From a virus, in IMG/VR virus record IMGVR_UViG_3300034022_000487, positions 1 through 33,602 of that record: a stretch of DNA of 33,602 nucleotides, one strand, 5' to 3'. Positions 2,378 to 16,976 of the stretch are shown here, in pieces. Below the pieces are notes generated by a model. The model was not told the DNA's origin and made no database searches. It saw only the letters and a list, made by a program, of their open reading frames with translations. The translations under genes and the position numbers were made by a program. Every line of letters starts with the position of its first letter. Position 1 is the stretch's first letter.

Positions 2378-2388
2378 AATAATATTTG

Positions 2389-2657: not shown

Positions 2658-2671
2658 CATACTTTAAATAG

Positions 2672-2745: not shown

Positions 2746-2798
2746 ATTATCGTTTAATCTAACGATAAAATCTGATATCGTTTCTTTCAATGATTACG

Positions 2799-2872: not shown

Positions 2873-2912
2873 AAAAATAACACTATCGTCTTTGAAAGTT
2901 TTTATTTAAATT

Positions 2913-3161: not shown

Positions 3162-3200
3162 ATTGATTTTCTCCTTTATTTTCAAAGAACGATAGTGTTG

Positions 3201-3286
3201 TACCTGAGGAGGGACTTGAACCCACACGGACATTACTGTCCACAAGATTTTAAGTCTTGCGTGTATACCGATTTCACCACTCAGGT
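3201..3286 (-). tRNA. tRNA-Leu(TAA)
   Basis: 86-nt type II cloverleaf: acceptor ACCTGAG/CTCAGGT, anticodon stem CAAGA/TCTTG around CTTAAAA, variable arm GGACAGTAATGTCC, T loop TTCAAGT, discriminator A. It reads TTA, the dominant Leu codon here. Confidence 0.92.
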
Positions 3287-3319
3287 ATGTTTTTATTACA
3301 ATGTCAAAGAACTATAAAT

Positions 3320-3346
3320 CAAATATAACAAAAAAATATGGTATAA
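3320..3346 (-). promoter_or_regulatory. Weak promoter upstream of tRNA-Leu(TAA)
   Basis: The minus strand has TATATTTG (3327-3320), a good -7 box, about 27 bp upstream of the tRNA. At the -33 position there is only a T-run with no clear TTTG, so the call is tentative. Confidence 0.35.
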
Positions 3347-3349
3347 AAA

Positions 3350-3381
3350 AACCCCGAACATTTTTTAGTTTGTTCGGGGTT
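3350..3381 (-). terminator. Intrinsic terminator after the 3.4-4.1 kb gene pair
   Basis: An 11-bp perfect inverted repeat (AACCCCGAACA/TGTTCGGGGTT) is followed on the minus strand by seven T. It lies just past the stop of the 149-aa gene and separates that pair from tRNA-Leu(TAA). Confidence 0.88.
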
Positions 3382-3397
3382 CGATTTAACTAAAAAT

Positions 3398-3847
3398 TTA
3401 TTTTATTTTATATGATAATCCAAGTCCTAATGTTAAATCATCACCAACAACATTACCAATTGTCCATAAATTTATGACACTACTTGGTCTTAGTGGATTG
3501 TACATTATAAGAAAATTTGGTTTATTTCCATCAATTGTTGGTTGTAATCCAAACCCAACAATTGCCTTGTCTTCTTTTACTTGTCTAAGAACGCCAAACT
3601 TCATATTATCAGATACGTTTCCTGTTCTGGTATTGACACCAGGAGGAATTGTAATTCCACCGTTTGGGCCTCCTATTTCACCATAGGGAAGACCCGCATA
3701 GAATCCCCAACCCTTTTTCATAAAACCACCCGTTATATAACCATCTGATGGACCGCCTTTTCGAGTGGCAGTTATAAACCACTCTTGTCCATTTGCTACG
3801 ACTTCCACTCCCAAAAGTAACGTTAGCACTAATAAAATTTTTTTCAT
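3398..3847 (-). CDS. Exported small protein, probably outer-membrane or periplasmic
   Basis: This 149-aa protein begins with a clear signal peptide (MKKILLVLTLLLGVEVVANGQ, cleavage near residue 20). The rest is rich in Gly, aromatic residues and alternating polar/hydrophobic stretches, as in a small beta-barrel or beta-sandwich, and ends in LGLGLSYKIK. The start overlaps the end of the upstream gene by ATGA, so the two are translationally coupled. A terminator follows. I do not recognise a named family. Its export fits the envelope theme of the 6.2-17 kb block. Confidence 0.75.
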   Translation of the reverse strand: MKKILLVLTLLLGVEVVANGQEWFITATRKGGPSDGYITGGFMKKGWGFYAGLPYGEIGGPNGGITIPPGVNTRTGNVSDNMKFGVLRQVKEDKAIVGFGLQPTIDGNKPNFLIMYNPLRPSSVINLWTIGNVVGDDLTLGLGLSYKIK

Positions 3848-4146
3848 TTTTTTGATTTGGTTAAGGAATCCTCCTTAGCCCACTTATCTTTTAAATTTGC
3901 AACCTTCTCAATCTTTACAATTTTACCATTTAATTTGGTAATCTCGTCCGTGATTCCTTTGGTTTTGACGGCCCTGCTAGCGTAATTCTCATCTGTTACT
4001 TCAACCCATTCAATCTTTCTTTCAAGAGATTTAATCTCTTTTTTTATTTGATTGACTGACTTTCTTTCATCGGAAAGGCTTGGATCGATAGATGATGTTA
4101 ATGTATTAAAAAATAACATTAACGATAATGTGATTTTATCTATCAT
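3844..4146 (-). CDS. Small exported or membrane-anchored coiled-coil protein
   Basis: This 100-aa protein has a short hydrophobic N-terminus (residues 4-17) that could be a signal peptide or anchor. A Lys/Glu-rich helical region follows (about 25-100) with heptad-like spacing. A TTG / 20 bp / TATGTTTG promoter lies just upstream, and the gene overlaps the next by ATGA, so the two form a two-gene operon set inside the tRNA array. The function is not recognised. Confidence 0.7.
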   Translation of the reverse strand: MIDKITLSLMLFFNTLTSSIDPSLSDERKSVNQIKKEIKSLERKIEWVEVTDENYASRAVKTKGITDEITKLNGKIVKIEKVANLKDKWAKEDSLTKSKK

Positions 4147-4170
4147 ATATTATAAATATTAATAATATAA

Positions 4171-4202
4171 CAAACATACGAAATAAAATATTGAAAATCA
4201 AT
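4171..4202 (-). promoter_or_regulatory. Bacteroidota-type promoter of the two-gene envelope operon
   Basis: The minus strand reads ATTG (4202-4199), 20 bp, then TATGTTTG (4178-4171), 25 bp before the ATG at 4146. Confidence 0.7.
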
Positions 4203-4225
4203 ATCTTAACATAAAAAAAATATTG

Positions 4226-4297
4226 TACTCAGTACGGGATTCGAACCCGTATTACATCCGTGAAAGGGATGTGACCTAACCCTTAGTCGAACTGAGC
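4226..4297 (-). tRNA. tRNA-Glu(TTC)
   Basis: 72-nt cloverleaf: acceptor GCTCAGT/ACTGAGT with a terminal G-T pair, D stem GACT/GGTC, anticodon stem CATCC/GGATG around CTTTCAC, T stem ACGGG/CCCGT, discriminator A. Confidence 0.92.
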
Positions 4298-4299
4298 AA

Positions 4300-4534
4300 G
4301 TAATCACTCAAATGGGTATTTGTCATAATATCACAATTGTTGCACTATACTCTGGTTAATTACTCCGTCTGTATCCAACAGCTTTATGTTGGTTTATAAT
4401 TGGCTACTTTACTATAACTCACATTTTTATTTGTGATTAATTAAGAACTAACATTGCTATCAGGGTTTAAATGGTTCACAGATAAATCTGGAATCACCAC
4501 CTACTGGTTTTACAGTATCTTAGTTAATTCTTTG
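4300..4534 (-). ncRNA. Structured spacer RNA between tRNA-Ser and tRNA-Glu
   Basis: About 235 nt with no ORF longer than a few codons. The minus strand forms CCAACA/TGTTGG with a 6-nt loop (near 4388-4371), TCACA/TGTGA (near 4437-4419) and CAAAT-ACCC-ATTTG (near 4322-4309). It could be one small RNA or tRNA-processing spacers; no promoter or terminator is clear. Confidence 0.35.
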
Positions 4535-4620
4535 CGGAGAGAGTAGGATTCGAACCCACGGTACCTTTCAGTACTTCGGTTTTCAAGACCGACGCGATAG
4601 ACCAACTCTGCCATCTCTCC
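4535..4620 (-). tRNA. tRNA-Ser(TGA)
   Basis: 86-nt type II cloverleaf: acceptor GGAGAGA/TCTCTCC, anticodon stem TCGGT/ACCGA around CTTGAAA, variable arm GTACTGAAAGGTAC, T loop TTCGAAT, discriminator G. Confidence 0.93.
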
Positions 4621-4828
4621 AATTGTCCCACCTGAAGTCCCAGTGAGTGGATTTTTCTTCTGTTTTCGTATTGAAAACACGAGACGGTCTTACCCGCACA
4701 TAAAAGTCAAACATACTCGGTGGGATTGTTACCCCCATATTCCGAGACCCCCTCTTAAGGCCGTGGTAGGAGACAACCATAACATCTTGAAAGAACGTTA
4801 CCAAACTTACTGAGTACTTCTTACTCAT
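4621..4828 (-). ncRNA. Structured spacer RNA between tRNA-Asp and tRNA-Ser
   Basis: The minus strand folds into CTCGG/CCGAG (4746-4742 with 4720-4716) with an inner GGG/CCC, and a 7-bp hairpin TGTTTTC/GAAAACA (4679-4661). An 81-codon frame crosses it but runs into tRNA-Ser and uses CGG, AGG and GGG codons that neighbouring phage genes avoid. I therefore favour RNA over protein. Confidence 0.4.
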
Positions 4829-4830
4829 TG

Positions 4831-4904
4831 CGGACTGGACGAGACTCGAACTCGCGACCTCCTGCGTGACAGGCAGGCATTCTAACCAACTGAACTACCA
4901 ATCC
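4831..4904 (-). tRNA. tRNA-Asp(GTC)
   Basis: 74-nt cloverleaf: acceptor GGATTGG/CCAGTCC, anticodon stem CCTGC/GCAGG around CTGTCAC, T stem GCGAG/CTCGT, discriminator G. It is a normal GTC tRNA, in contrast to the odd GTC-loop RNA at 2389-2536. Confidence 0.93.
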
Positions 4905-4914
4905 AAAATTGATT

Positions 4915-5277
4915 CTAACTCACTTAAATTGCACCATCCGAGTCACTGCTCTGGTTGACAAAGTCCTCGTTGAGTTAGTCTCAAAAAAATTACAGGTTTT
5001 TCGCACCCGTTCGTACATCATAACAAACATATCCCTATGTCTGTGGTTACATTTTCGTCATTGGGTAATTACTCCCGACTTATAGTAACTCTACCCTCAC
5101 CGCTCTGATACCGCGAATCAAGACAGTTTTTTGGGATTTATAGACAGTGGGGTCACACCACCGTCGTCACCTGATTATCTTTTTGGAAAACAGAAGATGG
5201 GGGAGTGGACATCTGTTTTTATGATTGGCGTTTCTCGCTTATTTGCTAGCCCCGTTAAATCCCAATCAACCAATATA
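4915..5277 (-). ncRNA. Structured RNA region between the small basic ORF and tRNA-Asp
   Basis: About 360 nt with no ORF and many strong minus-strand helices: TGATTGG/CCAATCA (5268-5222), AAAACAGATG/CATC(T)TCTGTTTT (5219-5187), GACGGTGG/CCACTGTC (5165-5143), AGTTACT/AGTAATT with GGGT/ACCC below (5096-5063), ACATA-GGGA-TATGT (5040-5027), a terminator-like stem at 5010-4983, then an 8-bp long-range stem CTAACTCA/TGAGTTAG (4978-4971 with 4922-4915) just before tRNA-Asp. This density of perfect helices points to one or two functional RNAs. Confidence 0.55.
4983..5010 (-). terminator. Terminator-like hairpin inside the tRNA array
   Basis: On the minus strand ACGGGT pairs with ACCTGT (one G-T pair) across a GCGAAAA loop and is followed by A and seven T. 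It may end the 5277-4983 RNA or attenuate the downstream tRNAs. Confidence 0.5.
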
Positions 5278-5397
5278 CTATTTTCTTCTCCTTTGTCTTA
5301 AAGCCGAACCAGCAAGAGTTTTCGTAGTTCTACTCGATTTCTTACTACTTAAAGCTTTACTAGCCCTTTTTGCCACTCTTCTCGATGTTCTAGCCAT
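5278..5397 (-). CDS. 39-aa highly basic protein
   Basis: A 39-codon ORF opens with ATG 15 bp after tRNA-fMet. The product starts MARTSRRVAKRASKALSSKK, goes on through a TLAGSALRQ segment, and ends in RQRRRK. Nearly half of its residues are Arg, Lys or Ser, and the hydrophobic residues are spaced as in amphipathic helices. This suggests binding to nucleic acid or ribosomes. I recall similar short Lys/Ser proteins with a GSAL motif in phages and mobile elements, but cannot name a family. The start is well placed, and the promoter at 5497-5528 would transcribe it after tRNA-fMet. Confidence 0.6.
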   Translation of the reverse strand: MARTSRRVAKRASKALSSKKSSRTTKTLAGSALRQRRRK

Positions 5398-5412
5398 AGT
5401 CCAAAGTTTTAG

Positions 5413-5484
5413 TTGCGAGAGAGGGAATCGAACCCCCGACCTAAAGGTTATGAGCCTTCCGAGCTACCGCTGCTCTATCTCGCG
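5413..5484 (-). tRNA. Initiator tRNA-fMet(CAT)
   Basis: 72-nt cloverleaf with acceptor CGCGAGA/TCTCGCA. The first pair is a C-A mismatch, the hallmark of bacterial initiator tRNAs that allows formylation. D stem GAGC/GCTC, anticodon stem GAAGG/CCTTT around CTCATAA, T loop TTCGATT, discriminator A. The usual three G-C pairs below the anticodon loop are reduced to two, and the D loop is short. Confidence 0.85.
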
Positions 5485-5496
5485 ATGTTTGTTATA

Positions 5497-5528
5497 CAAA
5501 GATATGAAATAATTTCGAATATACAAAA
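5497..5528 (-). promoter_or_regulatory. Bacteroidota-type promoter upstream of tRNA-fMet
   Basis: The minus strand reads TTTTG (ending at 5524), an exact 19-bp spacer and TATCTTTG (5504-5497). The expected start lies a few bases before tRNA-fMet (5484). Confidence 0.75.
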
Positions 5529-5546
5529 ATATCTCAAATCTTTTTG

Positions 5547-5617
5547 TTGTCCCTCAAGGATTCGAACCTCAACTAGATGTGCCAAATACACCTGTACTAC
5601 CGTTATACCAAAGGACA
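5547..5617 (-). tRNA. tRNA-Gln(TTG)
   Basis: 71-nt cloverleaf: acceptor TGTCCTT/AGGGACA, anticodon stem GGTGT/ACATC around ATTTGGC, T loop TTCGAAT, discriminator A. It reads CAA, the preferred Gln codon here. Confidence 0.9.
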
Positions 5618-5622
5618 TTATG

Positions 5623-5702
5623 TACCCAAGGTCGGACTCGAACCGACACGTCTTTCGACACGGCTTCTAAGACCGCTGTGTATACCATTCCACCACTCGG
5701 GT
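5623..5702 (-). tRNA. tRNA-Leu(TAG)
   Basis: 80-nt type II cloverleaf: acceptor ACCCGAG/CTTGGGT, anticodon stem GCGGT/GCCGT around CTTAGAA, short variable arm, T stem GTCGG/CCGAC, discriminator A. Confidence 0.92.
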
Positions 5703-5709
5703 ATTGTCG

Positions 5710-5781
5710 CGTTGATGATAGGACTCGAACCTATAGTCGTTCGGTTAACAGCCGAAAGCTTCACCATTAAGCTACATCAAC
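5710..5781 (-). tRNA. tRNA-Asn(GTT)
   Basis: 72-nt cloverleaf: acceptor GTTGATG/CATCAAC, anticodon stem TTCGG/CCGAA around CTGTTAA, T stem ATAGG/CCTAT, discriminator G. Confidence 0.93.
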
Positions 5782-5786
5782 AACTG

Positions 5787-5859
5787 TAGAGTAGACAGGG
5801 GTCGAACCTGCACGCACTTGCTCCCAAAGCAAGGGACCTACCTATTGGTCAACTACTCT
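5787..5859 (-). tRNA. tRNA-Pro(TGG)
   Basis: 73-nt cloverleaf: acceptor AGAGTAG/CTACTCT, D stem GACC/GGTC, anticodon stem CTTGC/GCAAG around TTTGGGA, T stem GCAGG/CCTGT, discriminator A. It is the first tRNA of the array. Confidence 0.92.
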
Positions 5860-6130: not shown

Positions 6131-6138
6131 TATTTATA
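6131..6138 (+). promoter_or_regulatory. TATTTATA box upstream of the surface block
   Basis: One of seven exact copies of this 8-mer in gene starts on the plus strand. It lies about 95 bp before the ATG at 6234. Confidence 0.4.
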
Positions 6139-6233: not shown

Positions 6234-6878
6234 ATGGAAAAAGTTAGATCAATTACCCTTGCCGTTAGGGACAGATTTATTCAAGGTTTTTTGATTTTCG
6301 CAATGGTGTTTATCGTTGTGGCTTTACTTACCCAAGTAACCGCAGTGATTTTACAAGTTTCGGGAAATGAGGAAATTCTTGGTAGATGGGCAAACAATGT
6401 CGAGCACAGAATCGACGGAACATTCAAAAATGATCCAAATAACATTATGTATAACGCAGATGAACACATCTGGGTTGAAAGTGTTGTTAATAACGTAAAA
6501 ATCGGAAAACTTGCTGGTAACAGGAATTTAGAGTTTGGAGTTAAGAATATGTTGGAGGAATACCTTCAGGAGAAAAACTACGACTTAACACCAAGCGCAC
6601 CAAACAAGTTAAAGGTTGAAATCGTTTACTTAGATGTATTAACAACTAAGAAAAACATATCTGTCTTTCACAAAAACGAAGAAGAGGTTGTTATCAGAAT
6701 GAAAGGTATCCTTTATAAGGATGGTAAAAAAGAAAAAGAAATTATTGTAGAGGAGAGTTCATCTGAAATTTCAATGTCAACTCTTATTGTGGACGAAGGT
6801 GGTCAATTTAATCAAACATCGTTGAGCAATGCTCTTAAAAAGACTTGCGATAAGTTAGTTACTAAAATTTTACAATAA
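6234..6878 (+). CDS. Single-span inner-membrane protein, first gene of the surface block
   Basis: This 214-aa protein has a short basic N-terminus, one hydrophobic helix at about residues 17-41, and a long C-terminal domain expected to lie in the periplasm. That domain alternates strands and helices and ends in ALKKTCDKLVTKIL. Its build (a domain near LEFGVKNMLEEYLQEKNYDL followed by strand-rich sequence) loosely recalls the periplasmic part of CsgG-like proteins such as the one at 14615, but I cannot claim homology. The next gene starts 2 bp after its stop. A TATTTATA box lies upstream. Confidence 0.75.
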   Translation: MEKVRSITLAVRDRFIQGFLIFAMVFIVVALLTQVTAVILQVSGNEEILGRWANNVEHRIDGTFKNDPNNIMYNADEHIWVESVVNNVKIGKLAGNRNLEFGVKNMLEEYLQEKNYDLTPSAPNKLKVEIVYLDVLTTKKNISVFHKNEEEVVIRMKGILYKDGKKEKEIIVEESSSEISMSTLIVDEGGQFNQTSLSNALKKTCDKLVTKILQ

Positions 6879-6880
6879 TA

Positions 6881-8548
6881 ATGAAAAAACTATTAACACT
6901 TATTGGGATATTAACAATATCCCTTTCGTCATTTGCACAATTAACAATTAATCAAACAATTGTTAGTAAACCAACATATAAAGTTGGGGACACTATACAG
7001 GTAAAATATACAACCGCTAAGGGTTCTACAACACCTCGTTATTTTTGGTTAAGATATCAATTTAATAATAAAGCATTGGCTTACGTTAGTACCACTTGGT
7101 CTCAAGGTAGTTCAGTTCAAACGTTTTATACTACTTGGAGTAACTATAAGTTTACCCCAAATTCAACTAAACCAACCACTAGTTTATATGAACAATATCA
7201 GGCTTCCCCTTGGTCATATGTTGCAAATTCAGATTGGAATGTGGGTCAATTAACGGTTCAAAGAACGGACTCATCTATTGATGGGGATATTGCAACTCAA
7301 AAATATGTAATTAAAGATTTGGGGGCGTATACCGATATTCATAAATTAGATTTATCCTATTCATACGATGCAACTGGTGCTAACATTTCACCAATTTCAA
7401 CAACCACAGGTTTAGTATCATTAACTAACGTTATTGGAAACACGTCGCAATTTAAAGTAAGAGTATTGTTTCCAAGTGGATATGACATTACGGCTCATAG
7501 TGTTTCGTTAATACCATTAACAACCACAGGAGATGTTAACTGGACCGCACAATCAATCGCATCTAAATCTTTAGATGCAAGTGGTGAAGCGATATTCACT
7601 ACCCAGGTTAAGGTTGGGGATTCATTTGCGGTATTTGTAAATGCCGCAACTCAAAAAACATTTATGAATAATATCGTAACAGTATCTGACGCATATAAGG
7701 CGTTTTTGGGTATTTCACAAACAGATATTAGCGGTACCGCAAATTATTTTACATATCCAATATTAGAAAAGAAAATTGGTTTAATAACTAAAAACAAAAC
7801 AACTTTTAGTGAGAGTGATTCTTATTATTTATTTTCTCACGTAATGGGTGTTGATGTATCTGCGAACGCAATGATTCCATCAAACGCCGCACCTGTAAAT
7901 GGAGTGGTTAATTTTAAATGGATGACAGGGTTACTAAACCAAAGTTGGTTAGATGGTACTCCAACATATAAAACAACGGTTACCTCACCAATACAAGCTG
8001 TGGATATGGTTTATACTTGGGGTGGCGATTTGGATTATTCACATTCATCTTCACCTACTGAGATTGCAACTAGAATATCTTCTGGTAATTACGCAAATTC
8101 AGTAAACCCTGGTTCTTCCGTTGGTTCTACGAATAGAACAATGGCTTTAAATTCTACTATGTCATATACAGCACCAACATTGGAAACTGCCAAATTAAGT
8201 GTTACATCTACATTAGAAAATGGTAAAGTGGTATTAACAACCACATTAACTAAATCAGATTTAGCTGGTCTACAAGTTATTATGAATTATGATAATTCAA
8301 AATTAACATTAGATGAAGTAAAATTTGATGCGGGTAGCACTATTACCAACTTTACAACACACGATAATGGTAGATTAACATTTGGATCTATTGACCAAAC
8401 AAAAACAGCTAGAATAAAAGTTGGTATTCCTTATAAATTAATTTTTACACCAAAAACAACATTAAGTAATACTGCAGGTTTATTCTATTTTGTTTTATCT
8501 GACGCGGTTGACGCAAAGGGTAATAAAATTAACTTGATAGTTGAATAG
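6881..8548 (+). CDS. Secreted protein with dockerin-like and cohesin-like modules
   Basis: This 555-aa protein has a signal peptide (MKKLLTLIGILTISLSSFAQ, cleaved near residue 19). Strand-rich repeats follow, then a region around 264-320 (VTVSDAYKAFLGIS and SDSYYLFSHVMGV) with the helix pattern of dockerin repeats but without a full calcium loop. The last 115 residues resemble a cohesin-type beta-sandwich (LQVIMNYDNSKLTLDEVKF and later AGLFYFVLSDAVDAKG). The C-terminal half is clearly related to that of the next gene (YTWGGDLDYSHS versus VTWKGDVNLSHS). Cohesin and dockerin modules normally mediate tight protein-protein docking outside the cell. I infer an exported adhesion or scaffold protein; a virion fibre is the alternative, but a signal peptide is unusual for one. 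Confidence 0.75.
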   Translation: MKKLLTLIGILTISLSSFAQLTINQTIVSKPTYKVGDTIQVKYTTAKGSTTPRYFWLRYQFNNKALAYVSTTWSQGSSVQTFYTTWSNYKFTPNSTKPTTSLYEQYQASPWSYVANSDWNVGQLTVQRTDSSIDGDIATQKYVIKDLGAYTDIHKLDLSYSYDATGANISPISTTTGLVSLTNVIGNTSQFKVRVLFPSGYDITAHSVSLIPLTTTGDVNWTAQSIASKSLDASGEAIFTTQVKVGDSFAVFVNAATQKTFMNNIVTVSDAYKAFLGISQTDISGTANYFTYPILEKKIGLITKNKTTFSESDSYYLFSHVMGVDVSANAMIPSNAAPVNGVVNFKWMTGLLNQSWLDGTPTYKTTVTSPIQAVDMVYTWGGDLDYSHSSSPTEIATRISSGNYANSVNPGSSVGSTNRTMALNSTMSYTAPTLETAKLSVTSTLENGKVVLTTTLTKSDLAGLQVIMNYDNSKLTLDEVKFDAGSTITNFTTHDNGRLTFGSIDQTKTARIKVGIPYKLIFTPKTTLSNTAGLFYFVLSDAVDAKGNKINLIVE

Positions 8549-8550
8549 TT

Positions 8551-10842
8551 TTGAAAAAAATAATAACAATATTACTACTAACACTTTGCTCGTTTGTAAC
8601 GAATGGGCAAAGTGTTTCTGCACCAGACTCTAAGTCTTTTTTACAATCCACTAGTGCACAAGATGCTAGTGGTTTTGTTTTAAGTGGGTTTAATTCAACA
8701 GCCACACTGTTAGCGTCAATTAGTTTAGTTAATCCTCCATCAGGGACAACATTTGTATTAAACACTACAACCGGATTAACAGCGGCAAGTGGATTTACTT
8801 TAAGTGGTAATAAAACTCGTTTGGTGGTAACGGGTACAATGGCAAGTATCAATACGGCACTAACATCCCTAAAAGTAAATACAGGTTCAGTAAGAGGTAA
8901 TATTGCTTTATCGGTAGCAGCAACTATAAACCCAACGGGATATTATTACAATGGTGTAAACGGACACTTTTATAGACCAATAACAACCGGTGCAACTTAT
9001 ACGGCGGCGAGAGCGGCTTCTCTATTAACAACATTCAAAGGTCAAACTGGATATTTGGTAACAATTACTTCAGCAGATGAAGATGCATTTATTTTTGCAA
9101 ATGTACCCCAATCAAATATCTGGTTTGCATTAACGGATGAAGCAAGTGAAGCAAGATGGACAATAGATGCTGGACCTGAAAAGGGAACTTTAATTAAAAT
9201 CAACAATGGCCAATTAAATGGTAACATTTCTGGTCAATACAACAACTGGGCACCTGGTGAACCAAATGATAGTGGTAATGAGGACTACGCGGTAACCAAA
9301 TGGAATGGTTCACAATGGAATGATTTACCAAATCATTTTGCAAATCCTTATGTAATTGAATATGGAACTTGGTCTAATCCCGATGATGCAACATTTACTG
9401 AATTTTATACCAATAGTGTATCTCATTCAAATGGTGAAGTATTAACCGCTAAATTTAATTTTGACTTTGGTGGTAATGTGGATGAAACTAAATTTTCAGC
9501 AAAGGCGAACAGATATGTAAATAATCTATGGAGTACAACAACTAACACATCAAGAGCTATAAGTGGTTTAGGTAAAGTTGATTTAACAAATGATTTAGAT
9601 ACCGCAAAAGTAAGTGGTGTTGGTACTAAAGCATCAACAACGGCAGGACAAGTTGAATGGGCAATAATAAATCCATATGACGCAAATTTAGGTGGTCATC
9701 AATTGTTAATAGACGAAAGAGAATTTGATGGAACAGGAGTATCTCCAAGTGATATAACATCAGTTAAATTATTTGATATATACGATGGACCGGTTAGTAT
9801 TCATAGTGTAAGTGGGTTTTGGAAAACTTATATAATGCCCGGTAATTTGACAACTAAGATAACATCATCCACATTTCAGGCACAATTAAGATTACAAGAT
9901 GGTTGGTACGGAACAAGAGCAGAATTTACTTTCTCACCAATTCAAAGTTATAAACAACACGGAATTGATATAATTGCAAACTCACAAAGTGAGTTAAACA
10001 CATTATATAGTAGTGTTGTAACCGTAACAGATGTTTATTTAGCATTTAAGGAATTAGCTAATGGTGGATTATTTGGAAATGAAAGTGGAAATGAATTTAC
10101 AAATGGTATTCAATTTTTGAACGCGGATGTAGATGGTAATGGTATATTCAATGAAGGAGATACATATAAACTATTACAACATTTGACAGGAGTTCAACCA
10201 CTTACAGAATATTCAGCATTGACATATTTGATGAAACTTTATAGTAAATCAGATTACGATGGAATTACTAAATCTAATTGGAATACAAAATTTAATTCAA
10301 CAAGAAGTTTATTTCCGTTTAGTTTAAACACAGGTACACTTAATAATACATACAATGTAAATGTAACTTGGAAAGGTGATGTAAACCTATCTCATTCCGC
10401 ACAACAAAGTGCAACCGGTGTTGTAGGTAATTCTATTAGAACTATGAGTTTGAGTACTAATTCAGTTTCTAATCAAATTAACGCATATCTAATGGGTGAA
10501 AACATTGGAGGTAAATTAATAGTAACAATATTAGTAGACCCATTACAACAAGAGGTGGTTGGTACTCAATTCAACTTGAATTATGATAACACGTTATTAA
10601 AGTTAGAAAAGATAGAATTTACAACTAAAGGTAACCCAACCAATTTTGGAACCGATAGAGGTTCATATATAACGTTGGGTTCATTAATAACCGATGGTTC
10701 AAATACATTAGATAAAACAACAGAATATAAAATAACATTTGTACCAAAAATTGGATTAACTGGAATATTAGGGTTGACTTCAATATCAACAACTGATGCA
10801 GTTAATAAAAATGGAACACAATTAAAAGTAAAAGTAAACTAA
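8551..10842 (+). CDS. Secreted C-type lectin protein with dockerin and cohesin-like modules
   Basis: This 763-aa protein starts with TTG at 8551, forced by the stop of the previous gene 2 bp upstream and by the signal peptide MKKIITILLLTLCSFVTNGQ. Residues 25-125 look Ig-like. Residues 130-270 are a C-type lectin domain (GYLVTITSADEDAF, YNNWAPGEPNDSGNEDYA, WNDLP, PYVIEYG). EPN plus WND are the calcium and sugar-binding signatures, of mannose-type preference in characterised lectins. A dockerin-like unit lies at 487-546 with a calcium loop DVDGNGIFNEGD. The last 115 residues resemble a cohesin fold. It is likely exported and carbohydrate-binding. Its stop overlaps the next start (TAATG). It could act in receptor masking, aggregation or adhesion; no diversity-generating cassette is visible. 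Confidence 0.8.
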   Translation: MKKIITILLLTLCSFVTNGQSVSAPDSKSFLQSTSAQDASGFVLSGFNSTATLLASISLVNPPSGTTFVLNTTTGLTAASGFTLSGNKTRLVVTGTMASINTALTSLKVNTGSVRGNIALSVAATINPTGYYYNGVNGHFYRPITTGATYTAARAASLLTTFKGQTGYLVTITSADEDAFIFANVPQSNIWFALTDEASEARWTIDAGPEKGTLIKINNGQLNGNISGQYNNWAPGEPNDSGNEDYAVTKWNGSQWNDLPNHFANPYVIEYGTWSNPDDATFTEFYTNSVSHSNGEVLTAKFNFDFGGNVDETKFSAKANRYVNNLWSTTTNTSRAISGLGKVDLTNDLDTAKVSGVGTKASTTAGQVEWAIINPYDANLGGHQLLIDEREFDGTGVSPSDITSVKLFDIYDGPVSIHSVSGFWKTYIMPGNLTTKITSSTFQAQLRLQDGWYGTRAEFTFSPIQSYKQHGIDIIANSQSELNTLYSSVVTVTDVYLAFKELANGGLFGNESGNEFTNGIQFLNADVDGNGIFNEGDTYKLLQHLTGVQPLTEYSALTYLMKLYSKSDYDGITKSNWNTKFNSTRSLFPFSLNTGTLNNTYNVNVTWKGDVNLSHSAQQSATGVVGNSIRTMSLSTNSVSNQINAYLMGENIGGKLIVTILVDPLQQEVVGTQFNLNYDNTLLKLEKIEFTTKGNPTNFGTDRGSYITLGSLITDGSNTLDKTTEYKITFVPKIGLTGILGLTSISTTDAVNKNGTQLKVKVN

Positions 10843-11735
10843 TGAAAATACTAATAATAATTCTGTTACTAATTTCAACAACATTTGTTACAAACGCACA
10901 AATTGTAAAACCTGATACGTTACAATTATCACCAAAAGAATTGTTTGGAGAAAGTGATGATTGGAACGATGTGGGTATATTACAATCGTATGTTAATTTT
11001 TCAAAAGATGTTCTATCATCATCAAACCTTTCAGTTGGTATAATAGGAAAGCAAGTGTCAACCACTCTTAATTTAGGTTACAATAAATCATCTATGAATG
11101 GTCAATGGGGACATACGTTCGCGGCGTCAATAAATCCTATATGGAATTATTATGGTGTGGGTTATGGTCTTAGTAGAAACACAGAAAAAAGAACAACCAC
11201 ATTGCAAACATTCTATTCTACAGATTTTGATTTCCAAAAAGATGTTACACTATCGTTTATTGATGTGTTTAGAACTAAAAAGTTTGGAACATTTGGTTAT
11301 AGTGTAATTGCATCAAAATCTTTTTGGGGAACATATGAAGGTCAATGGGAAGGAAAATATACGGTAGATGAAAATGGTGATTTTAAAGATTTAATATATC
11401 CAATGGTACCAGCATCAAGTGAAATAAGTTATAGAGGTATGGTGATGTACACATACACATTGAAAACAAAGAGAGTAAACATATCACCACAAATATTTGC
11501 AATGAGTGATGTATATAAAGTATTTAAAGATGGTACAGAATCGGATTTATCATATATAGACGATTTCAATTTGGACTTATATTATGGAACATCTATGGAT
11601 TGGAAGATAACTAAAAGGTTCATATTAAACACTAACATCAGATATAACACAACTTGGGATAAGTTGTCAGAATCCGTAGGATATAAAAAGGCTAACCCAA
11701 TCCTATTTATGATAGGAACAAACTTTCAATTTTAA
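10842..11735 (+). CDS. Outer-membrane beta-barrel protein
   Basis: This 297-aa protein has a signal peptide (MKILIIILLLISTTFVTNAQ) and a body of alternating aromatic strands, ending in an aromatic residue (IGTNFQF) as barrel proteins usually do. Its last 80 residues match the C-terminus of the 15564 gene: PQIFAMS versus PQVFVMS, and SMDWKITKRF versus SFDYKISKRF. The two are therefore paralogs. It overlaps both neighbours by one base (TAATG), so translation is coupled with the lectin gene and the first lipoprotein. It may be the pore or anchor for the secreted proteins encoded upstream. Confidence 0.8.
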   Translation: MKILIIILLLISTTFVTNAQIVKPDTLQLSPKELFGESDDWNDVGILQSYVNFSKDVLSSSNLSVGIIGKQVSTTLNLGYNKSSMNGQWGHTFAASINPIWNYYGVGYGLSRNTEKRTTTLQTFYSTDFDFQKDVTLSFIDVFRTKKFGTFGYSVIASKSFWGTYEGQWEGKYTVDENGDFKDLIYPMVPASSEISYRGMVMYTYTLKTKRVNISPQIFAMSDVYKVFKDGTESDLSYIDDFNLDLYYGTSMDWKITKRFILNTNIRYNTTWDKLSESVGYKKANPILFMIGTNFQF

Positions 11736-12082
11736 TGAAAAAACTAATATTGATATCGTTGATTTTTTTGGTTGGGTGTACTAAACCTGAATTACCAATA
11801 CCAGAGATTAATATCAAAGAAAGGGTATTTGACGTATCCGAAAGTAGTGTAATAAATGGTCAATCTATTTACTTTGATTTACCATCCACGGGTGTTTACA
11901 CCTTAACTATGACCGATAAAGAAAGTGGACAAGTAATTAGTCGAGAAAGATTTAATGGACAAATTGGTGAAAATATAAAGAAGATTTACACAAATTCAAT
12001 ACAATCCCAATATTTATATTTAACAATAGAGGACGTTACAAAAAATGAAATAAAAAAAACAATAATAGTATTAAAAAAGTAA
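11735..12082 (+). CDS. Lipoprotein with small beta-sandwich domain
   Basis: This 115-aa protein has a type II signal peptide with lipobox LVGC (Cys15), so it should be a lipidated envelope protein. The mature part is one small beta domain (STGVYTLTMTDKESGQVISRERF, then IGENIKKIYTN). It shares that pattern with the next gene, so the two look like tandem paralogs. The domain resembles the beta-sandwich of type IX sorting domains, but it lacks the usual C-terminal ending, so sorting is unlikely. It overlaps the barrel gene by one base. Confidence 0.75.
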   Translation: MKKLILISLIFLVGCTKPELPIPEINIKERVFDVSESSVINGQSIYFDLPSTGVYTLTMTDKESGQVISRERFNGQIGENIKKIYTNSIQSQYLYLTIEDVTKNEIKKTIIVLKK

Positions 12083-12092
12083 AAAGGACAAA

Positions 12093-12464
12093 ATGAAAAA
12101 AATATTAATTGTATCGATGGGGTTGATTATTCTTGGTGGATGTACTAAGGATGATTTTGTACCTGAAGTTAAACAAATAAAACCAGAATTGGCTATTACT
12201 TCATTATCGGGTATTAAGTTAGAAACCTCATTTGTGACTTCAGAAGTTGCTATGAATGTTAAACTTGTGTCCGCAGGTACTGTAACCATTAAAATTACAG
12301 ATATATCAAATAGAGTGGTCTCTAAAGAACAGGTAGAGGTTAAATCAGGTGATAATATATTAAAAATATACACATCGGCACTACCCCCATCAGCATATAG
12401 AGTTGGTCTTTATGATTCTAATAACAATTTATTAGGAATTACAGATTTCAATAAAATTCAATAA
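12093..12464 (+). CDS. Lipoprotein, paralog of the upstream lipoprotein
   Basis: This 123-aa protein has lipobox ILGGC (Cys17). Its C-terminal half (TVTIKITDISNRVVSKEQV, then SGDNILKIYTSALPP) aligns with the preceding lipoprotein. Unusually for this window, an AAAAGGAC ribosome-binding site precedes the ATG. Its last codons (LGITDFNKI) recur as a fossil after the next gene, showing that this end was once duplicated. Confidence 0.75.
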   Translation: MKKILIVSMGLIILGGCTKDDFVPEVKQIKPELAITSLSGIKLETSFVTSEVAMNVKLVSAGTVTIKITDISNRVVSKEQVEVKSGDNILKIYTSALPPSAYRVGLYDSNNNLLGITDFNKIQ

Positions 12465-12494
12465 ATAAAATAAATAAATTAAAAAACAAATATT

Positions 12495-13178
12495 ATGGCA
12501 GACAGAAACGGAGACGGAATAGTTTATCATCGCTCAGATTGTGGAGATAACTACGTAAGATTTTATGGGTTTGGTGGAGACGGTCCTTGTTCAACGTGTG
12601 AAACGTGGGGACTTACCGATAAAGCAATAAGGTACATACACGATCATCCTGAAATAAATCATAGACTTGAAGATGTCGTGGGTGGAGAGTGGGATGATAA
12701 AGTTGTTCCAATTTTTAAAGAAGCTTATGAAGAAGTAAAAGAAGGTGTAATAGACGCATACAACTGGGCGGATGCAAATGCTTGTAATATAGGTGTAACA
12801 GCCGCAATCTCAGCAGGAATTGTTTATGCCTTCACACCAGAACCAGCAAATCCAGCGGCGGTAGCAACATCAACAACTCTATCGGTAATGGCATCAACTA
12901 TTACTAGTATGGCGGTTAAAGTTGCTGTAGTTGGAGAAATGAGTGAAATAATAAAAGATGCGTTTTTACTAATGCCATATGTTAGTGATAGTATTGACCA
13001 CACATTATTAAAAAATATAATTTCAAATTGTTTAGCTAAGAGTTTAGATTCTGCGGCGTTATGGGCAACACCAGCTGGAGTTGGTATTGCAATTGGGTCA
13101 GCATTTGCACCTGTGATAGCAGATTTAATATGTAAAAAAACTTGTCCTGAAGGATTTACTAAAGCGTTTGGTGCATAA
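12495..13178 (+). CDS. Cysteine-containing protein with hydrophobic C-terminal half
   Basis: This 227-aa protein has no signal peptide. The N-terminus carries several Cys (DCGDNY, GPCSTCETWG) that could bind metal. A helical acidic stretch follows at about 60-95. The second half has two or three long hydrophobic segments (about 98-145 and 185-217, for example ATPAGVGIAIGSAFAPVIADL), like a membrane-inserting hairpin. It is flanked by the duplicated LGITDFNKI ends, so it looks inserted between copies. Possible roles are a membrane-inserting effector or a structural membrane protein; no family is recognised. Confidence 0.65.
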   Translation: MADRNGDGIVYHRSDCGDNYVRFYGFGGDGPCSTCETWGLTDKAIRYIHDHPEINHRLEDVVGGEWDDKVVPIFKEAYEEVKEGVIDAYNWADANACNIGVTAAISAGIVYAFTPEPANPAAVATSTTLSVMASTITSMAVKVAVVGEMSEIIKDAFLLMPYVSDSIDHTLLKNIISNCLAKSLDSAALWATPAGVGIAIGSAFAPVIADLICKKTCPEGFTKAFGA

Positions 13179-13182
13179 TATA

Positions 13183-13221
13183 AAACAATTAGGAATAACA
13201 GACTTTAATAAAATAAACTAA
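13183..13221 (+). pseudogene. Remnant of a second copy of the 12093 lipoprotein C-terminus
   Basis: Codons 13183-13221 read KQLGITDFNKIN and stop, against NLLGITDFNKIQ and stop at the end of the 12093 gene. The A-rich leaders that follow both copies are also alike. No start or upstream part remains, so this is a fossil of a tandem duplication or of recombination between repeats. Confidence 0.65.
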
Positions 13222-13239
13222 AAAATTAAAAAAAATACA

Positions 13240-13548
13240 ATGTCAGAAGAAGTAGAACAATCAGAAGGAACTTGGTCAGGTTTAAAAAAGACAATAATTG
13301 GGGTTGCGGGAACATTAGTAACCGCAGGTGGAGTATGGTTATCAACACTTTTAGGTGGTGACAAAGCAGAACCCGCTCCAGTACAAGCTGCACCAGTAAT
13401 TAATATTACAAATTCACAAACTCAACAACAAGCTGCAGGTGGTGGTAAAACTGTTATCATTAAAGAAAAAGAAACAGTTAAAGAACCCGCTAAGCCCGTT
13501 AAAAAGAAAGACGGTGACGAATTTAAAGAGGAAGCACCTAAGTGGTAA
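13240..13548 (+). CDS. Small membrane protein with Pro/Lys-rich tail
   Basis: This 102-aa protein has one hydrophobic segment (about residues 17-38, IIGVAGTLVTAGGVWLSTLL). A flexible tail follows, rich in Ala, Gln, Pro and then Lys/Glu, like the spacer arms of TonB-type proteins. A charged end (KKKDGDEFKEEAPKW) follows. It carries no recognised domain. It may be a periplasm-spanning linker of the surface block. Confidence 0.65.
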   Translation: MSEEVEQSEGTWSGLKKTIIGVAGTLVTAGGVWLSTLLGGDKAEPAPVQAAPVINITNSQTQQQAAGGGKTVIIKEKETVKEPAKPVKKKDGDEFKEEAPKW

Positions 13549-13629
13549 TATATTACCAAATAGGAACGATATTATTCTTTATGGGATTAATATCATTCTT
13601 AATAAAATGTAGTTTTAAATTAAAAAAAG

Positions 13630-14259
13630 ATGAGTGAAAAACAACAACCACCAAGTGGTTTTAAGGATTTATTAAGTAATATGATGGCCAGAAGATGGTA
13701 CATCACCGCATTGGTATTGGGTGGTTTTATGTTTATAATAGGAGGAATGTTCTTCGCTATATTAAATAAATCAGCAATTGAAGGAGAATGGAAAGAACTT
13801 CTATTATTGTTATTGGGGGCATTCATTGGTAGTTATGGTAAAATCATTGACTATTGGTTTAGTGATACGGATAAGGATAAGATGTTAGTTCAAAAAATGG
13901 ACGAGGAAGATGGTACATCATTAAGCAATACCGCTGATTTACCACCAACTCCACCAAACAACACTCCAATCATACCTGAAGCGTTTCAAAACGCTATTGA
14001 AAACTCAAAAATAGAAAAGGTAAACGATACGTTTGAACAAGTACCAACCACAAAACCAAGAACAGGTATTGAAGTTGATGAAGATGGTGATGGTATAATG
14101 GATGGTATTGATTTCGATGGTGATGGTAAAATCGATATGTATTTCGCACACAGACAATGTGAACACGTTTGGGGTGACTTAGATGGTGATGGAACTGAAG
14201 AATGCTTAAAATGTGGTAAGGTTAAAGACGAAATGGCCGAAATACACATAGAAGGATAA
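13630..14259 (+). CDS. Two-span membrane protein with calcium-loop and CxxC tail
   Basis: This 209-aa protein has two hydrophobic helices near residues 25-48 and 57-73. A Pro/Asn-rich linker follows. The C-terminal region has Asp-rich loops (DEDGDGIMDGIDFDGDGKID and DLDGDGTEE), like thrombospondin type 3 or EF-hand calcium sites. Cysteines (QCEH and CLKCGK) could bind zinc. The N-terminal part recalls holin-like membrane proteins of Bacteroidota phages, but the tail is too elaborate for a simple holin. The gene precedes another holin-like ORF by 30 bp. Confidence 0.7.
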   Translation: MSEKQQPPSGFKDLLSNMMARRWYITALVLGGFMFIIGGMFFAILNKSAIEGEWKELLLLLLGAFIGSYGKIIDYWFSDTDKDKMLVQKMDEEDGTSLSNTADLPPTPPNNTPIIPEAFQNAIENSKIEKVNDTFEQVPTTKPRTGIEVDEDGDGIMDGIDFDGDGKIDMYFAHRQCEHVWGDLDGDGTEECLKCGKVKDEMAEIHIEG

Positions 14260-14289
14260 TAAACACAAAAAACACAAAAAACACAAATT

Positions 14290-14562
14290 ATGGGATTTTT
14301 AAAAGAATTATTTAACGACAGCAACACAATTAACGAAAAGTCAGTTGTGGGATTTTCATCATTTATCTGTATGGTTATCGCTTTAGCGGTTGATCTTATT
14401 ACGGGATATTTTGGAAAACCATTAGTAATCAACGAATTTATATTCAACGGATTCTTAGTAATAACACTAGGTGCCTTTGGTATTGCATCGGTTGATAAGT
14501 ACATAAATAACAAACACAACAAACCAGACGAAGAAACTGAAGAAGTTGAAAATGAAGGTTAA
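14290..14562 (+). CDS. Holin-like two-span membrane protein
   Basis: This 90-aa protein has a short amphipathic N-terminus, two hydrophobic helices (about 18-40 and 50-70) and a charged, acidic tail. Size and topology fit a small phage holin, and similar short proteins occur in Bacteroidota phages. No endolysin gene is visible in this window, so lysis is inferred from topology only. A strong terminator follows directly. Confidence 0.6.
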   Translation: MGFLKELFNDSNTINEKSVVGFSSFICMVIALAVDLITGYFGKPLVINEFIFNGFLVITLGAFGIASVDKYINNKHNKPDEETEEVENEG

Positions 14563-14589
14563 AAAAGGGGGAGTTTTACTCCCCTTTTT
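14562..14589 (+). terminator. Intrinsic terminator
   Basis: AAAAAGGGG(G)AGT and ACTCCCCTTTTT form a strong stem with a 3-nt loop and a T-tract. It overlaps the stop of the holin-like gene and splits the surface block into two transcription units. Confidence 0.85.
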
Positions 14590-14590
14590 G

Positions 14591-14598
14591 TATTTATA
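14591..14598 (+). promoter_or_regulatory. TATTTATA box before the CsgG-like gene
   Basis: An exact 8-mer (context TGTATTTATA) directly after a terminator and 16 bp before the ATG at 14615, the position of a new promoter. Confidence 0.5.
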
Positions 14599-14614
14599 AA
14601 TAAGATAAAAAATT

Positions 14615-15334
14615 ATGAAAAAAATATTAATATTATTGGTTTGTGTGTTGATTGGGTTTACCTCCAACTCCCAAACTATAGGTAAAACTCAAACAGAACA
14701 ATATAAAGCATCATTTGAAACGGCTATGGATATATCTAAATTTTTAGATTATGATGGTCCACAAATACCTATTCAAATATTAAAGGCTGGTATTTCAGAC
14801 GAGATGTATGAGATGTATCCAGAACTTAAAGAAAAACGTGTTGGTTTAGGTGTTGCAAATATTTCTATGGAATATCTTGAAAACCTAAATAGATTCAAAT
14901 TTACCGAGGATAAGACAGAAATTAAGAATAGAATGGTTAAACAATTCCAAGCATCTCAATCAGGAATTTCTGAAAATAAATTAGACGGTAGAGGTAAAAT
15001 TAATTTAGCGGAATATTTTGTAACTATCGAATGTTATGATTATTCAGTATCTGAAGATGAAACAATTAACATACAAAACGGTGTGAAAAATTTAATGGTT
15101 ACTCGTATTGGTTTACAGGTTAGATTTACAAATGCGGAAACTGGTGTTGTATTTGGAGCATCAGGATTAGGTGAGGCCAAAACAACAAGAGAATTAACGT
15201 TATTATCAGATGCAACCGTAGATGAAATGAAGTTCAATCAATCAACAATATCAATTGCAACTAAAAAAGCTTTAGATATTGCTTGTGCTAGAATATTAGA
15301 TAGAATGATTAAAAAACAAATATTTTTAAAATAA
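14615..15334 (+). CDS. CsgG-like curli-secretion family protein
   Basis: This 239-aa protein has a signal peptide (cleavage near SNSQ, residue 20) without a lipobox. The body follows the CsgG layout: an early strand (VGLGVANI), a helix with charged residues (DKTEIKNRMVKQFQAS), then INLAEYFVTIECYDYS, then MVTRIGLQVRFTNAETGVVFGASG, and a C-terminal helix (ATKKALDIACARILDRMI). CsgG forms an oligomeric secretion pore in the outer membrane. This protein is shorter than E. coli CsgG (277 aa) and lacks its lipid anchor. It starts a unit with the FeoA-like and barrel genes, each overlapping the next. A related non-pore periplasmic protein cannot be excluded. Confidence 0.65.
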   Translation: MKKILILLVCVLIGFTSNSQTIGKTQTEQYKASFETAMDISKFLDYDGPQIPIQILKAGISDEMYEMYPELKEKRVGLGVANISMEYLENLNRFKFTEDKTEIKNRMVKQFQASQSGISENKLDGRGKINLAEYFVTIECYDYSVSEDETINIQNGVKNLMVTRIGLQVRFTNAETGVVFGASGLGEAKTTRELTLLSDATVDEMKFNQSTISIATKKALDIACARILDRMIKKQIFLK

Positions 15335-15567
15335 TGTCACAAGAAGTTATAGATGTACCACAATCAATAAATTGTGAAAATTGTAATCCTTGTATTAGAC
15401 TGAGATTAATGGAATTAGGTTTTATACAGGGTCAAGAAATTGAAGTTGGTGGTGAAAAATTAGGACTTCATATTGTACATCTTTTATCCAATAATGGTAC
15501 TATTTCACAAACAATCGCACTAAGAAAAGAAGAATTAGGTAGAATCTGCCTAAAAGAAAAAAAATGA
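15334..15567 (+). CDS. FeoA-like SH3-fold protein
   Basis: This 77-aa protein has a CxxCxxC-like start (CENCNPC, residues 14-20). A FeoA-type core follows: RLRLMELGFIQGQEIEV, a middle strand, then IALRKEELGRICL. FeoA domains help iron uptake through FeoB or act as small SH3 adaptors in regulators. No feoB is seen. The gene overlaps the CsgG-like gene by one base and the barrel gene by four (ATGA), so it is made together with envelope proteins. An adaptor role is as likely as iron transport. Confidence 0.7.
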   Translation: MSQEVIDVPQSINCENCNPCIRLRLMELGFIQGQEIEVGGEKLGLHIVHLLSNNGTISQTIALRKEELGRICLKEKK

Positions 15568-16976
15568 AAAAATGTTATATCCTATTTTTATTCTTTTTAT
15601 TCCTACTATCATTTCAAAACGTAAATGGTCAGTCTGTCGTTACACAAACTTTTATTGATAAATGTAGTGGAGAAGTAAAATTTGCAACTACCACATATAT
15701 TAATGGACAGGCGGTCATAAGTTTTTATAATCAAATTAAAACATTCACACAAGCAGAAGTTAATGCTGGAGTTGCTCAAATTTGGTTATTATCCGTTAAG
15801 ACATCTTATGAAGCAATAACCTGTCCAGTGAATAATCCAGTAGTAACACAAACCGTACAACAAACAGTAAGTCAAGCTGCAGCCGCAGCAGCGGCCGCCG
15901 CCGCAAGTTCTGCAGCGTCCTCAGCCGCATCCTCGGCAGCAAGTTCTGCGGCATCTTCATCAGCATCATCCGCGGCAAGTAGTAGTGCAAGTTCTGCAGC
16001 TGCAAGTTCTGCGTCAACCCCACCAAGTACTGGGTCATCAGCACCACCAAGTGGTGGAAGTAGTAACTCGTCATCAAGTGGAAGTAGTTCATCCTCATCA
16101 AGTGGAGGATCATCTGAATCTAAAACAGAAACTAAAACTGAATCAAAATCGGAAAGTAGTTCAGAATCAAAAAGTGAATCAAAGTCAGAGAGTAAAAGTG
16201 AAGAAAAGAAAGAAGAATCTAAATCCGAATCTAAAGAAGAAAATAAGGAAGAGAAAAAATCTGACGAAAAGAAAGAAGAAAAGAAGGAAGAGAAAAAAGA
16301 AGAAAAAAAGAAACAACAAAATATGAACCCGATGCTTTTAGCGTCAGATTTAACAAGTGCACAATCTATAGATGGAAGATATAGTGTAATGTTATCTATG
16401 GGTGTAAGTAAAACATCTATGGCAGGAGATAAGTCATTTGGTGTTAGTGGAATTGTATGGTCAACATTAGATCAGTATGTTGTTTCATCAAGTTATACCA
16501 AAATGGATTTTAGTAATGGTAAATTGAATGCAATTCACTCGTATGGTGCGTCGGTAGCATATTTGAAAGGTACTTGGATGACTCTTACAACATATACATT
16601 TATAAAACCAGATCCTAAAATTGGTACCTATGGTGTTAACGTTGGCGGAATTGGTTTATTAACTGAAAATTTAGAAGGTAAACGAGATATTAGTATTTCA
16701 ACATCTTTAGTTGGTTTTTGGACTAAACCATTTCAATATAGTAAAAAATTAACATTATCCCCACAGGTTTTTGTAATGTCATCACCAATAAGTTATCAAC
16801 CATCTGTAGGTTCAACTAATATTAATAGAACTATTGGGTTTTTGATTGGTAGTAGTTTTGATTATAAAATTTCAAAACGTTTTGGTTTTAGTTTTAATTA
16901 TAAGGCAAATTTCAGTACTGATCCAGGTTCTCAATTATTACACAATTTCTTGGTTGGGTCGAGGGTAATACTTTAA
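15564..16976 (+). CDS. Outer-membrane barrel protein with Ala/Ser and Lys/Glu-rich linker
   Basis: This 470-aa protein has a signal peptide (ends near NVNGQ, residue 23) and a small N-terminal domain with two Cys (to about 95). A long low-complexity linker (about 100-250) moves from Ala/Ser through Ser/Gly to Ser/Lys/Glu and Lys/Glu. A C-terminal barrel domain (about 255-470) ends in a hydrophobic residue (VGSRVIL). The barrel is paralogous to the 10842 protein. The DNA of the linker is repetitive and locally GC-rich (GCAGC and AGTTC units), so it may vary in length by slippage. The linker could span the periplasm or extend from the surface. A terminator follows. Confidence 0.8.
   Translation: MKKCYILFLFFLFLLSFQNVNGQSVVTQTFIDKCSGEVKFATTTYINGQAVISFYNQIKTFTQAEVNAGVAQIWLLSVKTSYEAITCPVNNPVVTQTVQQTVSQAAAAAAAAAASSAASSAASSAASSAASSSASSAASSSASSAAASSASTPPSTGSSAPPSGGSSNSSSSGSSSSSSSGGSSESKTETKTESKSESSSESKSESKSESKSEEKKEESKSESKEENKEEKKSDEKKEEKKEEKKEEKKKQQNMNPMLLASDLTSAQSIDGRYSVMLSMGVSKTSMAGDKSFGVSGIVWSTLDQYVVSSSYTKMDFSNGKLNAIHSYGASVAYLKGTWMTLTTYTFIKPDPKIGTYGVNVGGIGLLTENLEGKRDISISTSLVGFWTKPFQYSKKLTLSPQVFVMSSPISYQPSVGSTNINRTIGFLIGSSFDYKISKRFGFSFNYKANFSTDPGSQLLHNFLVGSRVIL

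Follow-up and report, generated by a model that had tools for sequence, protein, structure and literature searches.

Late phage infection is thought to be devoted to virions and lysis. For the curli genes of pelagiphages, 'sibling capture' has been proposed by their describers (PMC7029224), and phage-encoded cargo of the type IX secretion system (T9SS) has been noted once earlier, in Cryophage (PMC7468147). Here we describe a block of thirteen consecutive plus-strand genes (6234-16976; named A to K, M and N) in IMG/VR record IMGVR_UViG_3300034022_000487, a linear virus record of 33.6 kb (positions 1 to 33,602) that is referred to as the window. By its TerL (27964), portal (29794) and prohead protease (33118) the window belongs with the T4-like phages; among its best TerL matches, at ~28-30% identity, are Microcystis phage Mel-JY01 and Flavobacterium phage vB_FspM_immuto (hereafter immuto). 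T4-like Bacteroidetes phages share the block as a conserved cassette, and what can most safely be said is that hundreds of related aquatic phages carry, behind their late-promoter motif, a module predicted to place a glycan-binding cohesin/dockerin assembly both in and on the infected Bacteroidetes envelope. With a probability of roughly 0.45, we read it as a late-expressed apparatus that is built in this envelope and presents a protein scaffold with a lectin at the cell surface, adhesion or capture being the likely purpose.

Envelope-type proteins were called with a simple hydropathy/lipobox rule (signal peptide, lipobox or membrane span). They are encoded by 12 of the 13 module genes versus 3 of the 23 other genes in the window (Fisher p = 4e-6), and by this rule the terminase, portal and protease of the window carry none of these features. 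The first-pass annotation had credited all thirteen genes with such signals, which holds except for M (15334), and its two lipoproteins were confirmed as E and F. The module comprises the following features, all on the plus strand.

6131..6138 (+), TATTTATA motif, 103 nt ahead of A
6234..6878 (+), A, 214 aa, N-terminal membrane span and periplasmic domain; K paralogue
6881..8548 (+), B, 555 aa, secreted scaffold protein with signal peptide; cohesin-like C-terminal domain by position and similarity to C
8551..10842 (+), C, 763 aa, secreted, signal peptide; C-type lectin (residues 165-268), dockerin-like loop, C-terminal cohesin (residues 651-736)
10842..11735 (+), D, 297 aa, outer-membrane barrel, paralogue of the N barrel; accessory, 20/81 loci
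11735..12082 (+), E, 115 aa, lipoprotein (CTKPEL) with a domain like the C-terminal T9SS sorting domain, without surface-export signal
12093..12464 (+), F, 123 aa, lipoprotein (CTKDDF) with a domain of the same kind and the surface-export signal C-x-K-(D/E)2
12495..13178 (+), G, 227 aa, hydrophobic segments; accessory, 8/81 loci
13240..13548 (+), H, 102 aa, one weak membrane span and a Pro/Lys/Glu-rich tail; core
13630..14259 (+), I, 209 aa, membrane protein with an EF-hand-like loop; semi-core; holin-like on hydropathy alone
14290..14562 (+), J, 90 aa, two spans; homologue of immuto gp192 (tblastn 43.8%, E=1e-19)
14563..14589 (+), intrinsic terminator separating the A-J and K-N operons
14591..14598 (+), TATTTATA motif, 24 nt ahead of K, abutting the terminator
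14615..15334 (+), K, 239 aa, signal peptide and predicted CsgG/PelC-type fold; module core
15334..15567 (+), M, 77 aa, soluble FeoA-like domain (Pfam FeoA 5.7e-5); accessory, 5/81 loci
15564..16976 (+), N, 470 aa, signal peptide, small alpha/beta domain, Ala/Ser helix, Ser/Glu/Lys linker and predicted C-terminal 12-strand barrel; core

Gene content, linkage, the late-promoter motif, predicted folds and sorting signals were all shown computationally. A scan of IMG/VR from the window K returned 482 relatives and a second scan from immuto gp17 returned 113; the best 80 of each, together with immuto and the window, gave 162 loci, which were compared by clustering all open reading frames surrounding K. 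Across different phage backbones, H, K, the barrel N, the K paralogue A and lectin/cohesin scaffolds co-occur in these loci. K, the anchor, is present in 162, H in 142, A in 119 and N in essentially all, the last as two subfamilies of 81 loci each that are joined by profile comparison (96%). The window-type gene order is A-B-C-(D)-E-F-(G)-H-I-J-K-N and the immuto-type order is [lectin]-cohesin scaffold-H-K-(I)-N-A-[lectin]; because the flanking genes differ between the groups, the cassette is a separate unit. Two genes (gp14 and gp15) make up the immuto scaffold; other phages have them fused as cohesin-dockerin-cohesin-sorting domain, so that a fusion link connects gp14 and gp15. As the loci were chosen on K, a ranking of neighbour conservation with K on top is biased, and the window was instead compared with immuto, where identity is 50% for K (gp17), 37% for the portal and 28% for the terminase.

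Reciprocal searches starting from the cohesin proteins recovered K in 31/31 and 8/8 loci with enough sequence (39/39), the 31/31 being the testable loci that link B to K. Among 50,697 phage records K was found only in immuto (four records), and among 84,980 cellular species only in two contigs of metagenome-assembled genomes. One of these (L165) has the full cassette together with an endolysin and resembles a phage contig, while several genes of the cassette are present on the other (L164); with two such contigs in 84,980 species genomes, one of them phage-like, a bacterial origin of K was rejected. The proposal of a phage-encoded envelope or surface module is thus well supported by the conserved cassette, its obligate linkage, the T9SS sorting signals of relatives, the surface-lipoprotein signals and the late promoters. 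The first-pass annotation had named a lack of conservation in other phages as a ground for refuting it, and that ground falls away, since the set is conserved. As a single set of thirteen genes it stands for the core, H-K-N-A with the lectin/cohesin proteins, which recurs in the 162 loci; G, M and D are accessory, and J is homologous to a gene of the immuto lysis cassette.

The glycan-binding part of the module is most evident in C, whose Lectin_C domain scores above the Pfam cut-off (3.4e-5). Its cohesin match (PF00963) reaches 17.7 bits (E=0.0042), under the cut-off of 24.1 bits, while relatives reach 34.6 and 36.8 bits, above it. The dockerin-like Ca2+ loop of C reads NADVDGNGIFNEGDTY, and the loop DVNNDGxxTISDxY occurs in 53 of 67 lectin proteins; most of these have one clear DxNxDGxxxxSD loop, with weak matches to the Pfam dockerin (PF00404). 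No recognisable dockerin loop was found in B (6881). Where two cohesin/dockerin proteins, one with a lectin, had been called from the window, the lectin and the dockerin-like loop of C hold, the cohesin is clear in relatives and sub-threshold here, and a dockerin loop in B is not recognisable. Among 48 lectin-type proteins, 41 carry the C-type lectin and the rest LamG, GEVED or PA14.

These head domains bear on the possibility that host glycans are covered late in infection by the lectin on display, so that rivals are shut out or released progeny do not adhere to debris. The presence of glycan-binding domains, surface sorting signals and a late-promoter motif, and the swapping of head domains between clades (C-lectin, LamG, GEVED, PA14), would suit such receptor masking. 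Conservation within C (28 homologues) argues against it: the N-terminal and lectin parts are the best conserved in the window clade (0.76; lectin 0.757), compared with 0.51-0.65 elsewhere in the protein (dockerin 0.65, cohesin 0.583), which is unlike a domain chasing variable receptors. Since the lectin is among the best-conserved parts, its ligand seems stable. Late expression would moreover come late in infection to serve exclusion, and we consider masking unlikely.

Signals for surface localisation differ between the two cassette types. A T9SS type A sorting domain (TIGR04183/PF18962) was detected in 24 of 55 representative scaffolds, those of the immuto type (best NCBIfam E 1.6e-12), and no C-terminal sorting domain was found in window-type scaffolds, including B and C of the window. 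Window-type scaffolds occur with the E/F lipoproteins or their relatives (family 17), which have a domain similar to the sorting domain (E/F hhalign 84%, E=8e-6); the Pfam matches of F are DUF3244 (4.9e-5) and Por_Secre_tail (0.035). In 115 loci with enough upstream sequence, the sorting domain was present in 66, a lipoprotein with the sorting-like domain or of surface type in 48, both in 0 and neither in 1. The lipoprotein export signal (LES) C-x-K-(D/E)2, which in Capnocytophaga is the optimal form of the signal for surface lipoprotein export (PMC5080379), was found in 16/30 F homologues versus 1/30 E homologues, and another lipoprotein of the same phages (19727, CGTGSTTT) lacks it.

Export across the outer membrane may involve K and N. 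The AlphaFold2 model of K (predicted local distance difference test, pLDDT, 75.6; predicted template-modelling score 0.71) matched CsgG best in Foldseek (4uv2, E=4e-6, probability 1.00, TM-score about 0.4-0.5), followed by PelC (1e-5), GNA1162 and FlgT. Against the Pfam CsgG family (PF03783) K gave no match at E≤1, whereas a control pelagiphage CsgG matched at 5e-53; the earlier description of K as CsgG-like is accordingly retained for the fold and dropped for family membership. The model contains one long hairpin (134-153/156-173), the region of the second CsgG hairpin being weakly modelled, and a lipobox-like Cys is present in only about 30 of 162 K proteins. A is a K paralogue (hhalign 95%, E=3e-8) with a weak match to YajG/Lipoprotein_16 (Pfam PF03923, E=0.0012). 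The FeoA-like M sits between K and N in a few phages.

For N, a 12-strand barrel (residues 257-469; pLDDT about 70-87) was predicted; ahead of it in the chain come an alpha/beta domain, an Ala/Ser helix and a linker without order. Its best Foldseek match was FapF (2.9e-7), with NanC and autotransporter barrels (NalP) close behind. The barrels of D and N, annotated earlier as paralogous, are indeed so in profile comparison (96%, E=4e-9). Searches of the Protein Data Bank by sequence with K alone, the K profile and the N profile gave no relevant match, a PHROGs search of the module proteins gave nothing useful, and D/N as PorP/SprF or another T9SS barrel was discarded for want of an NCBIfam match.

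The pair of K and N looks like parts of two known amyloid exporters in these models, although the N match is unspecific and neither likeness has sequence support. If K and N exported an aggregating fibre subunit found among the secreted proteins, the module would be an analogue of curli or Fap. Neither a curlin repeat nor a Fap subunit was found among the module proteins, and the Pfam and NCBIfam searches of these proteins likewise found no CsgE, CsgF or curlin partner domain and no fap operon partner (FapB/C/E, C39 protease FapD). The secreted proteins are multidomain cohesin/lectin proteins, and N's match to FapF barely beats generic small barrels such as NanC. Amyloid secretion is consequently a distinctly improbable account of the folds.

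The timing of expression is suggested by the motif TATTTATA. In immuto (NC_055915) it occurs at 30 coding-strand sites, 24 of them 5-60 nt ahead of an annotated gene, and this pre-gene fraction is the highest among the 220 A/T-only octamers occurring at least 8 times (median 0.27). Among the immuto genes behind it are gp13, which heads the module, and the endolysin/holin cassette, as well as terL, portal, tail sheath, tail tube, baseplate hub and tape measure. Window sites lie ahead of K, of a putative scaffold gene and of terL, portal and protease, with a spacing of 11-42 nt at the structural genes (sites include 24399, 27953, 29782 and 33091), and a hairpin terminator abuts it ahead of both K and terL, the latter at 27953. 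On this pattern the motif looks like a late-promoter core of these phages, and from its sharing with structural and lysis genes we infer co-transcription of the module with them. TATTTATA is the reverse complement of the T4 late promoter TATAAATA; the T4 motif itself was rejected as module promoter, not being enriched ahead of most module genes; the word that is enriched is TATTTATA. TAnnTTTG promoters of the host type are found at ClpB and further flanking genes but not at K, N, B or the heads of the lectin/cohesin genes, and are in some excess at H (11/91) and the E/F lipoproteins (9/56).

A late-promoter motif is also what virion components would have, and lectin domains are frequent in phage fibres, so the proteins might end on the virion as fibres or as decoration acquired at lysis. 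Signal peptides, which the window's structural genes lack, are unfit for a tail assembled in the cytoplasm, as are lipoproteins and barrels, and the T9SS sorting signals speak against it too. The virion-fibre reading was rejected on the signal peptides, lipoproteins and sorting domains, and we regard it as very improbable.

Late expression, assembly, the export route in the window clade, docking and purpose are parts that we infer in the following scheme for the surface apparatus. Late in infection, the phage late promoter (TATTTATA) would switch the cassette on alongside structural and lysis genes; Sec would export the module proteins, and N would enter the outer membrane as a 12-strand barrel. 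K and its paralogue A may form a CsgG/PelC-like ring or chaperone, periplasmic or in the outer membrane, beside N. Immuto-type cohesin/dockerin scaffolds would cross via the host T9SS by means of their sorting domain, and window-type scaffolds would reach the outside via N/K and the surface-type lipoprotein F, with E. The lectin subunit would dock onto the scaffold through its dockerin-like loop. H ends in Trp in 138/138 full-length homologues, and this invariant residue suggests that H has a C-terminal docking peptide. The displayed lectin would then bind a conserved glycan, most likely on neighbouring hosts or particles, so that virions are freed next to new hosts. The first-pass annotation had offered adhesion, aggregation, exclusion and particle capture as conceivable purposes; we favour adhesion or capture of neighbours at lysis, with a lysis aid and receptor masking as the main rivals. 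In its fullest form, which we advance more tentatively, a whole aquatic Bacteroidetes phage clade would equip the envelope of its dying host with a dedicated organelle for lectin display. This would comprise an exporter, the phage-only CsgG-fold/FapF-like pair, and a cohesin-dockerin scaffold making additional use of the host T9SS, and the lysing cell would be tethered to the next hosts.

Several points weigh against a surface-display apparatus. The split between sorting domain and lipoprotein tracks clades and hence does not represent many independent events. As the K model does not show both CsgG hairpins, a pore is not established, and the lectin proteins lacking a sorting domain, as well as B and C, are without a proven route across the outer membrane. 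Cells infected with phage Melnitz, which has csgG/csgF, were not seen clumping (PMC9004378). Finally, endolysin families lie close to the cassette in 54 of 95 long loci (phrog_181 lysis 1e-70), and together with the holin-like genes they fit lysis equally. In such a lysis module, K, N and H, I and J would be an outer-membrane rupture system substituting for a spanin or pore, and the lectin/cohesin proteins would loosen the lipopolysaccharide or surface layer. The late-promoter motifs are compatible with this, I and J are holin-like in shape, the J homologue gp192 directly precedes the endolysin and annotated holin of immuto, and a role for phage CsgG in lysis was proposed by the Melnitz authors (PMC9004378). 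However, large T9SS-sorted lectin scaffolds are costly and not needed for rupture, the immuto lysis cassette is separate, about 30 kb off, with a late-promoter motif of its own, and the core H-K-N-A-scaffold set of immuto has no lysis gene. Matches of spanin type in the PHROGs search of the module proteins did not rise above chance level. We hold a lysis function to be improbable and keep surface display as the preferred reading.

Some neighbouring genes were noted. A DNA/RNA non-specific endonuclease with a signal peptide adjoins the module in 21 of 95 long loci (L135:12520-13107, L002:9935-10513) and possibly degrades host DNA at or after lysis. Eleven tRNAs lie on the minus strand of the window (2671-5859). 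Beside this cluster, a 290-aa protein (1565-2437, minus strand) has a stretch (FVRNPVDRFFSSYYW) judged by eye to be sulfotransferase-like, and may be a glycan-modifying gene. Between the tRNAs are two small genes (3398-4146, minus strand) with signal-peptide-like N-termini; a TATTTATA site lies at 4158, and the contig L164 has homologues of both genes close to K.

A common aquatic phage group thus keeps about six to twelve envelope genes behind a late-promoter motif. Remodelling of the cell surface for adhesion or capture, if it occurs, would mean that infection alters the aggregation and carbon flux of Bacteroidetes in water. The isolated pair of immuto and Flavobacterium sp. LMO8 makes the hypothesis directly testable, and the unexplained curli genes of pelagiphages are placed in a broader pattern.

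A search of the open-licence literature for cohesin/dockerin/lectin modules in such phages found none, and the module was compared with systems that share parts of it, of which pelagiphage curli genes and phage-encoded T9SS cargo are the nearest precedents. The curli (type VIII) operons of pelagimyophages and Melnitz likewise occur in T4-like aquatic phages and include an outer-membrane component of the CsgG fold (PMC7029224, PMC9004378). Unlike them, the module has a 12-strand barrel, cohesin/dockerin scaffolds, C-type lectins and T9SS signals, and no CsgF or curlin repeats; K and A profiles did not match the proteins of Pelagibacter phage HTVC008M, a carrier of pelagiphage curli. In a telling parallel to the module, the curli operon of HTVC008M encodes CsgF, CsgG and a hypothetical protein (L169 10638-11963) that combines a glycan-binding PA14 domain with curlin repeats and is possibly a missing curli subunit with a glycan-binding head.

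FapF, the Pseudomonas amyloid exporter (PMC5557850), resembles the structure predicted for N, with a 12-strand barrel, an N-terminal helical region and a long disordered linker, and is the best fold match for N in the Protein Data Bank, but identity is ~10%, N has an extra N-terminal alpha/beta domain, and the module is without Fap subunits or a C39 protease. The predicted fold of K is common to the PelC/CsgG/GNA1162 superfamily of ring lipoproteins, from which K differs in mostly lacking the lipobox cysteine and in belonging to a family found almost only in phage contigs. Cryophage T9SS cargo (PMC7468147) is, like the module scaffolds, a phage protein with a type A sorting domain that is presumed to be secreted by the host; it consists of single variable genes (endoglucanase, GH39, PA14), whereas the module scaffolds sit in a conserved multi-gene set. 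With cellulosome-type scaffolds the module shares cohesins on a surface-sorted scaffold and dockerin-like loops on the putative partners. It differs in being phage-encoded and in that it is predicted to display lectins rather than enzymes.

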